Assembly (NCBI GenBank): GCA_018971605.1
Contig: JAGXAL010000008.1
Span: 1 to 34,406 of the forward strand
Direction: 5' to 3'
Source of the DNA: Natronospirales bacterium
Lineage (GTDB): Bacteria; Pseudomonadota; Gammaproteobacteria; Natronospirales; REEB76
Length of the DNA stretch: 34,406 bases
The notes below the pieces were generated by a model, which had not been told where the DNA came from, did not search any database, and worked only from the letters and a program-made list of their open reading frames with translations. Below, piece by piece: positions 4,413 through 32,406 of this stretch; within the stretch, counting starts at the first letter, position 1; every line of letters begins with the position of its first letter. The position numbers and the translations under genes are program-made.

Positions 4413-4517
4413 GGGGGAGTACCTGCGAGTCAGCGGCGCGCATTGTCGCACGCGACCGTGCACGCTCCAACCGTATGCCGCCAAATTGACTGAATTAGTG
4501 GGTATCCGTATCATTCC

Positions 4518-4629
4518 CGCCCTCGCGCGGGGCTCGACCGGATCGAAATGCCGGTGGCATTTCGATCCGGTCGAGCGTGAGGCAAGGGCGAGAAGCAAAG
4601 CTTCGAGCGGGCGGGCAGAATGACTGCCC
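4518..4629. repeat. Hairpin cluster upstream of folD, including a perfect 21-bp-arm hairpin; related to the tRNA-linked palindromic elements
   Basis: GCTCGACCGGATCGAAATGCC-GGT-GGCATTTCGATCCGGTCGAGC (4532-4576); GAAGC-AAA-GCTTC (4592-4604); GGGCAG-AATGA-CTGCCC (4613-4629); GTGAGGCAAGG between them. Confidence 0.7.
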
Positions 4630-4887: not shown

Positions 4888-5047
4888 ATTTGCGCCTGTA
4901 GGTGAGGCAGGTGTATTAATCGGACAGCCAGTGGCTGTCCGATCGTGCCGAACGCCACGACAGGATGTCGGGACCGGGGGCTGAAAGCACTAGTTCGTAT
5001 CGCCAGGGATGGCAGCGCGAGCGCAACATGTGTATTTGCGCCTGTAG
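4888..5047 (-). repeat. tRNA-linked palindromic element, copy B (reverse orientation), including flanking direct repeats
   Basis: DR ATTTGCGCCTGTAG at 4888-4901 and 5034-5047 (second copy is the tRNA-Arg 5' end). Palindromes ATCGGACAGCC-AGT-GGCTGTCCGAT (4919-4943), CGACA-GGA-TGTCG (4958-4970), GCCAGGGATGGC (5002-5013); terminal GGTGAGGCAGG next to the DR. Confidence 0.7.
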
Positions 5048-5218: not shown

Positions 5219-5286
5219 TTTTTGATGAAGCGTCCAGAAAATATTTTTCGTATGAATCATTGTTTGCTGCCAAAGAATCCTCTGGT

Positions 5287-5362
5287 GGGCCGTTAGCTCA
5301 GTTGGTAGAGCTGCTGACTCTTAATCAGTAGGTCGCAGGTTCGAGTCCTGCACGGCCCACCA
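5287..5362 (+). tRNA. tRNA-Lys (anticodon CTT)
   Basis: Acceptor GGGCCGT/ACGGCCC, anticodon arm GCTGA-CTCTTAA-TCAGT, encoded CCA. Confidence 0.93.
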
Positions 5363-5510
5363 GAGGATTCTTGTTCTTTGGCATTTGCCATCCATGGCGC
5401 GCTTACCGGCGCGGACTTCCATGTCCGCGCGCTCAGCCGGGACGAAATGCCACAGGCATTTCGTCGAAATCTGCCGGCCTCGCCCTGCACGCCCACCAGA
5501 GGATTCTTGT
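5347..5510 (+). repeat. tRNA-linked palindromic element, copy C, including flanking direct repeats
   Basis: DR CCTGCACGGCCCACCAGAGGATTCTTGT (5347-5374) and CCTGCAC-GCCCACCAGAGGATTCTTGT (5484-5510). Palindromes GCCATCCATGGC (5387-5398), GCGCGGAC..GTCCGCGC (5409-5430), GACGAAATGCC-ACA-GGCATTTCGTC (5441-5465); GCCTCGCC abuts second DR. Confidence 0.75.
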
Positions 5511-5600
5511 ATTTGATGCTAACCATCCATGGTGCGCTTACCGGCCGCGCTTGCGGGCCGCACAGTTGATCACAGAATAGCCAACCGTCGGTTGTCTGTG
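5511..5600 (+). repeat. Decayed tandem second unit of the palindromic element (C2)
   Basis: ACCATCCATGGTGCGCTTACCGGC (from 5522) matches copy C GCCATCCATGGCGCGCTTACCGGC; then GGCCGCGCTTGCGGGCC and CAACC-GTC-GGTTG. Confidence 0.55.
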
Positions 5601-32074: not shown

Positions 32075-32150
32075 GGGGCTATAGCTCAGCTGGGAGAGCG
32101 CCTGCATGGCATGCAGGAGGTCGCCGGTTCGATCCCGGCTAGCTCCACCA
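32075..32150 (+). tRNA. tRNA-Ala (anticodon GGC)
   Basis: Acceptor GGGGCTA/TAGCTCC, anticodon arm CCTGC-ATGGCAT-GCAGG, encoded CCA. Confidence 0.95.
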
Positions 32151-32291
32151 GAGATTGTTGTGACTGGTGGCAGAGAGCCATCCATGGCGGACAGACCAGC
32201 TTGGACATCCTGTCCAAGCGCTGGGCAGGAACGAACAGCCACTGGCTGTTCGTTTGGAGCACCTGCCTCGCCCCGGCTAGCTCCACCAGAG
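32134..32291 (+). repeat. tRNA-linked palindromic element, copy D, including flanking direct repeats
   Basis: Perfect 20-bp DR CCCGGCTAGCTCCACCAGAG at 32134-32153 (tRNA-Ala 3' end) and 32272-32291. Palindromes GCCATCCATGGC (32177-32188), CTTGGACA-TCC-TGTCCAAG (32200-32218), CGAACAGCC-ACT-GGCTGTTCG (32232-32252); CCTGCCTCGCC (32262-32272) abuts second DR. Confidence 0.8.
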
Positions 32292-32406
32292 TTTTGGAGA
32301 GAGAACTCCCAGAACCGTCCTTGGTGCGCCAACCGGCCCGGACATCGTGTCCGGGCACTCGGCGGGGCGAAGCAGTGCTTCGCCTGGTAGCGTGTCCCGG
32401 GGCGAG
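32292..32406 (+). repeat. Decayed tandem second unit of the palindromic element (D2)
   Basis: ACCGTCCTTGGTGCGCCAACCGGC matches C2 ACCATCCATGGTGCGCTTACCGGC; CCCGGACA-TCG-TGTCCGGG (32337-32355); GGCGAAGCA-G-TGCTTCGCC (32366-32384). Confidence 0.6.

Follow-up and report, generated by a model that had tools for sequence, protein, structure and literature searches.

Why does the 3′ end of a tRNA gene recur a short way downstream of that gene, with a set of hairpins between the two copies? We studied this question at the tRNA-Lys(CTT) gene of a Natronospirales bacterium (Gammaproteobacteria; GenBank assembly GCA_018971605.1), in positions 1 to 34,406 of the forward strand of contig JAGXAL010000008.1. 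We refer to this whole stretch of 34,406 nucleotides as the window. The sequence behind tRNA-Lys is a copy of a repeated unit of about 139 bp (median 139 nt), with dozens of copies in a genome, that encodes nothing and appears to represent a new type of mobile element of very small size. An earlier note, made from the letters of the window alone, had marked candidate copies of this element by letter and called the one behind tRNA-Lys copy C. Other genomes and their contigs are given by our working labels (G001, C57 and so on).

Anatomy of the unit at tRNA-Lys(CTT)

Copy C and its surroundings consist of the following features, all on the forward (+) strand.

5287..5362 (+): target gene, tRNA-Lys(CTT), whose final 16 nt (5347-5362) supply the unit with its gene-end block
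5347..5374 (+): block in proximal (current) position, made of tRNA nt 61-76 and 12 nt of trailer; the mobile unit begins here
5375..5386 (+): remaining spacer from block to core, of the target-derived type that varies between targets
5385..5484 (+): structured core, match to covariance model R1 (103 bits, E=7e-16)
5387..5398 (+): P1 hairpin GCCA-TCCA-TGGC, GCCATCCATGGC
5409..5430 (+): P2 hairpin GCGCGGAC-TTCCAT-GTCCGCGC, arms 5409-5416 and 5423-5430
5431..5483 (+): P3 hairpin, outer stem GCTCAGCCGG/CCGGCCTCGC, inner stem GACGAAATGCC/GGCATTTCGTC
between 5483 and 5484 (+): recombination junction at the 3′ foot of P3
5484..5510 (+): distal (displaced) tRNA-Lys 3′ end and trailer, minus one G
5511..5592 (+): decayed second tandem unit, P1 and the start of P2 still recognisable (model match 5520-5592, E=0.5)

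The 28 bases CCTGCACGGCCCACCAGAGGATTCTTGT at 5347-5374 return at 5484-5510 as CCTGCACGCCCACCAGAGGATTCTTGT, one G shorter and at an offset of 137, exactly where the earlier note had placed them. The tRNA part of this duplication is precisely nt 61-76, that is the 3′ strand of the T-stem, the 3′ strand of the acceptor stem and NCCA. The three-hairpin core lies between the two repeats (5385-5483). Its palindromes were all found as described, with the inner P3 palindrome GACGAAATGCC-ACA-GGCATTTCGTC spanning 5441-5465 and GCCTCGC ending at 5483, directly adjoining the second repeat. Copy C is among the best-preserved members of the family.

Structure of the core

Aligning the cores gave three hairpins common to all of them: P1, with the form (N)CCA-TCCN-TGG(N); P2, with about 9 bp and an apical TCCN; and a long P3, whose foot is GCTCGGCCGG...CCGGCCTCGC or a covarying alternative, GTTC...CTCAC. 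Copies B, C and D of the window all match one covariance model (R1), which was built partly from window copies and contains none from the sister genomes. The earlier note had proposed that copies C and D share the same architecture with different arms in P2 and P3. Both match the model almost equally well (copy D: E=2e-15), and the differences between their arms turned out to be compensating changes. Among 11 copies from the source genome both sides had changed in 18 of 30 pairs, with a covariation of 0.41 compared to 0.17 after shuffling. For 128 copies, in an alignment fitted to the covariance model, the covariation was 0.515 compared to 0.146 after shuffling and at most 0.084 when the alignment was slid. 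Folding the core as RNA also gave a good result (z=-3.4). Stems that vary in sequence and keep their pairing point to a folded single strand, either DNA or RNA, rather than a double-stranded protein site. We found no Rfam family matching the unit of the window at E<=1.

We also observed that the reverse complement of the apical motifs of P1 and P2 is CANGGATG in all cores (in the window at 5387-5398 and 5409-5430, for example). This is close to the CsrA/RsmA consensus, ACARGGAUGU. For insertions at 5′ ends the GGA hairpins, which lie on the opposite strand, would fall within the mRNA leader of sucD, murG or xthA.

Distribution of the family

The earlier note had called for a genome-wide search, and the same layout was found at further tRNA genes of the source genome, which holds at least 24 copies at E<=1e-4; this count is a lower bound as a limited number of candidates was scored in the searches of this genome. 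Within the genus 10 of 11 genomes carry copies at the same threshold, as do several relatives within the order. In a sample of the class we detected copies at E<=1e-5 in 16 of 369 genomes, including the complete genomes G037, G099 and G326. The family is thus scattered and patchy across the Gammaproteobacteria. As a control for specificity, the model found no match in 378 kb of other gammaproteobacterial folD and tRNA loci. It also found none in 154 kb of viral DNA picked by a partial pattern, and the 17 pattern matches on viral contigs, none of which the model matched, are due to chance. A description of the element could not be found in the open-access literature, though subscription journals may hold one.

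Targets and the junction

A script run over the tRNA genes of the source genome recovered the same layout behind Phe-GAA, Leu-TAA, Pro-CGG, Ala-GGC, Glu-CTC, Leu-CAA (twice, in tandem) and Lys-CTT. At each of them the last 16 nt of the gene recur downstream with 13-16 matching. We then extended the comparison to the 142 copies for which flanks were fetched: a copy of the target end (score >=12) lies directly 3′ of the core in 93 of the 142, compared to 2 of 702 control sites taken from these loci. Of 141 copies, 125 have a block that starts with CC. Most cores end in CTC(G/A)C (CTCAC or CTCGC), and this foot of P3 nearly always meets a CC of the target.

The targets comprise tRNAs for at least 12 amino acids, at both gene ends, as well as sucD, murG, xthA, thiS, rng and hslU, the protein genes being named from our reading of the translated gene starts. 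Sense insertions at tRNA 3′ ends take 15-17 nt of the tRNA, mostly 16, from C61. Antisense insertions at tRNA 5′ ends mostly take 18-19 nt, up to G19, and sometimes 30. At sucD, murG, xthA, rng and hslU the core is inverted and lies upstream of the gene, at its 5′ end. In protein genes the duplication covers as much as about 60 nt of the coding sequence, and across all targets the duplications range from 14 to 62 nt with a boundary specific to the gene. Protein-gene ends as targets, and the inverted position of copy B at the 5′ end of a tRNA-Arg gene, were missed in the earlier note. The spacer resembles the natural flank of the respective gene; that of sucD resembles the ribosome-binding region of sucD in element-free relatives.

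Two further loci are of a less usual kind. The core at the 3′ end of thiS in the source genome (C57:14383-14512), a rare protein-gene target of the 3′ type, appears to supply the stop codon. In G003:C13 we encountered an array of at least four 109-nt units with an apparent antisense tRNA-Glu 5′ end and no tRNA gene in the 1.2 kb that were fetched.

Empty sites, parallel insertions and tandem arrays

The earlier note had suggested comparing the tRNA-Lys(CTT) locus between sister genomes. Sisters sharing only the tRNA duplication, with unrelated sequence in between, would have spoken against its proposal; these were looked for, and the genomes show a different pattern. Model-matching cores occur at the same tRNA in some sisters and are missing in others: the gene is free of the element in G005, G006, G008 and G009, carries it at the 3′ end in G000, G001, G007 and G010, and at the 5′ end in G001, G004 and G010. 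Upstream of tRNA-Trp the site is empty in G000, and G001 and G004 hold different cores at the identical GG/T point after AGCGGCGG. Identical or nearly identical units follow each other head to tail at tRNA-Arg (G004), tRNA-Ser (G008), murG (G001) and tRNA-Met (G037), where there are seven units on one side of the gene and more on the other.

Origin of the gene-end block

The two copies of the gene end allow us to ask which of them is native. We compared the displaced and current ends of sucD, murG and xthA codon by codon in a few hand-chosen pairs and found 28 synonymous and 4 non-synonymous changes, compared to a non-synonymous share of 79% expected if changes were random. Even when no more than half of the changes are assigned to the displaced copy, its neutral drift is rejected (P about 6e-6). 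In sucD of G000 the displaced copy resembles, by eye, the element-free relatives at both ends of the block. As displaced and current ends differ almost exclusively by synonymous changes, the current end would have come with the unit from a diverged relative. Judged by these comparisons the current gene end probably arrived with the unit, like the attP of an integrative island, and the duplication at tRNA-Lys, too, was probably imported and not copied locally, a point that the earlier note had not considered.

The cores themselves tend to cluster by target. The nearest neighbour of a core belongs to the same target in 24 of 55 cases (expected 2.0; no more than 10 in any of 2000 permutations) and to the same genome in only 7 of 55. 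The closest pairs of cores from different targets have similar tRNA ends (Lys-CTT and Lys-TTT, Arg-CCG and Arg-ACG).

Proposed mechanism and alternative explanations

The family is real, structured, dispersed and mobile in appearance, and there is good support for the logic of its integration. We think it probable that it consists of non-autonomous, non-coding micro-elements which integrate site-specifically, are moved in trans and would have spread horizontally. A unit comprises a gene-end block starting at CC, some 20-30 nt of natural flank (trailer, leader or ribosome-binding site) and a core of about 100 nt whose three hairpins terminate in CTC(G/A)C. In the model we propose, a circular or tandem unit would recombine within the matching end of a recipient gene, at a CC that reads GG on the opposite strand. 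The incoming block would become the functional gene end, which would explain why essential genes survive the insertion, and the native end would be displaced outward, behind the core. Repeated integration at one site would give rise to tandem arrays with the newest unit adjoining the gene. The recombinase would be supplied in trans and recognise the folded core as a single strand. A more specific version, which we put forward tentatively and regard as rather doubtful in its full form, is that of a self-fitting element: a circle of about 140 nt, perhaps single-stranded, in which the captured gene end serves as homology guide for a recombinase bound to the three-hairpin core and directs it to the matching CC/GG in any recipient, so that swapping the gene end reprograms the target.

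Alternatively the core alone could be transposed to a position just outside the gene end, with repair of a staggered break copying the stretch from CC to the insertion, and the copies drifting apart later. Direct repeats flank every well-preserved copy, the likeness of the spacer to the natural flank (as in the ribosome-binding region of sucD) would be expected, and the acquisition of new targets is easily explained. However, the displaced copies of protein genes have not drifted like free DNA, as the excess of synonymous changes illustrates (28 compared to 4), and in independent insertions the boundary is fixed for each gene (C61, G19, GGAGG of murG, sucD), unlike the ends of variable staggered cuts. 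We therefore consider this explanation unlikely. Less probable still is a structured trailer or leader RNA of tRNA operons that spread by local tandem duplication like rtT of Escherichia coli (tyrT/tyrV-rttR), in which the repeated tRNA end would be a by-product or an RNA decoy and the similarity of the cores would reflect a shared RNA function. The layout at E. coli tyrV is indeed alike (tandem units in which hairpins accompany the 3′ end of tRNA-Tyr, beginning in the T-loop), tandem arrays are common in our family and the core folds well as RNA. Yet inverted copies at the 5′ ends of tRNA and protein genes are not tRNA trailers, the element-free alleles and the parallel insertions at one site require movement, and the model does not match rtT (best E=0.7). 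We give an equally small chance to a third possibility, in which the units are mobile but integrated by ordinary homologous recombination between block and target (RecA or single-strand annealing on the lagging strand) and the hairpin core is only a signal for replication or transfer. The homology of block and target over 16-60 nt, the preference of cross-target jumps for similar blocks and the failure to find a dedicated recombinase are all consistent with it. It leaves the constant CC junction at the foot of the hairpin unexplained, though, and blocks of 16-20 nt, or blocks that are 15-25% diverged, are poor substrates for RecA.

Several observations weigh against the micro-element moved in trans that we favour, and its weak point is the missing recombinase. 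No dedicated recombinase could be linked to the element; serine recombinases and IS110 were not part of this search. Proteins with a PF00589 domain number only two each in the complete, element-rich genome G037 and in the drafts G001 and G007. These two are presumably XerC and XerD. A Y1/RAYT transposase as mobiliser is rejected, PF01797 being absent from G000, G001, G008, G018 and G262. BLAST found no phage or plasmid carrying the element, and we saw no excised circle. Longer units bearing cargo were sought for each copy through a match to the block far upstream and none was convincing, with flanks of about 600 nt in most cases. The data place the crossover only to within the block, and the clustering of cores by target may in part reflect vertical inheritance of old insertions.

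A dedicated tyrosine recombinase was likewise rejected, as it does not occur in all carriers; proteins of the XerC/XerD type may still do the work. PF00589 matches of about 600 nt, candidates for integron-type integrases by length only, occur in G004, G005, G099, G150 and G326 (some of them at G004:C42, G005:C20, G099:C1:434357 and G326:C1:760963), and G000, G001, G007, G018 and G037 have no PF00589 match of that length. In G003:C16 an integrase lies some 0.9 kb away from a copy at the tRNA-Phe 5′ end; it was read as belonging to an ordinary tRNA-linked island. The work would then be done either by a host recombinase (Xer or RecA type), by another family, or by an enzyme that comes and goes.

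Comparison with known systems

E. coli rtT (tyrT/tyrV, rttR; RtT in Rfam) is alike in layout: behind a tRNA gene there are units of comparable size in tandem, each with the tRNA 3′ end from the T-loop, and a P3-like hairpin, GTTGCC-GCA-GGCAAC. In E. coli K-12 (tyrT-tyrV-rttR, 700-1640 of the fetched locus) two tRNA-Tyr genes are each followed by units ending in a tRNA 3′ end. Unlike our element, rtT was seen here only at this one tRNA locus, and we know of no rtT insertions at 5′ ends or protein genes. Homology is ruled out at the level of sequence and structure (R1 against tyrT/tyrV, no Rfam match). The rtT repeats may form a separate family of elements of this kind.

Integron cassettes are small units that end in a folded site, attC, recombine at the foot of its hairpin and form head-to-tail arrays. 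Our units resemble them in all three respects; unlike cassettes they have neither attI nor an open reading frame (ORF), and their insertions are dispersed over gene ends. The attC R′/R″ boxes (GTTRRRY/RYYYAAC; GTT/AAC) were not found at the ends of the element, which are CTC(G/A)C and, across the junction, CC.

With islands and satellites that target tRNA genes through tyrosine integrases the element shares an incoming gene end that restores the target, as attP does, and a native end displaced to the far side. In both, the target end is duplicated and a functional copy restored, and both insert at the 3′ ends of tRNA genes and the 5′ ends of conserved genes, as islands at the 5′ end of dusA do (PMC4482086). 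Unlike islands, the element measures about 139 bp, has no gene or integrase and uses dozens of unrelated targets. Its sites at the 5′ ends of tRNA genes lie in the D-loop, and its CC junction is fixed at the foot of a hairpin. We detected no ORF-sized content in it and no dedicated PF00589 protein shared by its carriers.

REP/REPIN sequences are short non-coding hairpin elements that occur in many copies, are mobilised in trans and carry GTAG/CGTC tags (PMC3733652). Apart from the tags, they and the CGTC-tagged REPs resemble the element in these features and in the scale of their mobility. The element differs in its three different hairpins and its direct gene-end duplications; the GTAG/CGTC tag is not in the consensus, and its units are direct and head to tail, not inverted pairs. 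As for miniature inverted-repeat transposable elements, we saw no terminal inverted repeats, and the duplications are not of a short fixed length. IS110 elements resemble the unit in that they use a structured nucleic acid, the bridge RNA, and exchange strands at a core dinucleotide (PMC11208160). Our unit differs in that it lacks a transposase gene, and IS110 is not known for long gene-end duplications.

Other copies and observations in the window

The remaining copies in the window are as follows.

4888..4901 (-): copy B, displaced 5′ end of tRNA-Arg(TCT), ATTTGCGCCTGTAG
4901..5015 (-): copy B, core, inverted, at the tRNA-Arg(TCT) 5′ end (E=5e-11)
5034..5047 (-): copy B, current tRNA-Arg 5′ end and leader (block)
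32134..32156 (+): copy D, proximal block, tRNA-Ala(GGC) 3′ end
32175..32272 (+): copy D, core (E=2e-15)
32272..32294 (+): copy D, displaced tRNA-Ala 3′ end
32312..32401 (+): copy D, second unit in tandem (E=5e-7)
4499..4629 (no strand assigned): copy A, isolated P3-like hairpin upstream of tRNA-Pro, weak model match (E=0.015-0.019)

Copy B (4888-5047) is an insertion of the 5′-end type in inverse orientation. It is doubtful whether copy A belongs to the family. The long isolated hairpin upstream of tRNA-Pro (4514-4594), with a P3-like apex (ATGCC-GGT-GGCAT), is possibly a remnant of the element.

The leader and trailer of tRNA-Lys (5265-5293 and 5359-5385) form long inverted repeats, CAAAGAATCCTCTGGT and ACCAGAGGATTCTTG. 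At the element-free tRNA-Lys locus of G005 both sequences have changed and the pairing is retained (GGATTGTTCAGGCTCCCT and AGGGAGCCTGAACAATCC), which suggests a selected leader-trailer stem in the tRNA-Lys precursor.

Implications

If this explanation is true, about 140 bp without any coding content are enough for a mobile element, and such an element can still enter the ends of essential genes precisely and without harm, as it brings a spare gene end along. In essential genes such as sucD and murG the 5′ end would be foreign, probably swapped in by the element, which bears on both annotation and phylogeny. Repeats of tRNA ends such as E. coli rtT would be explained by analogy. The family would also represent a natural set of reprogrammed insertion specificities and would predict an unrecognised recombination activity, possibly single-strand specific and guided by homology.
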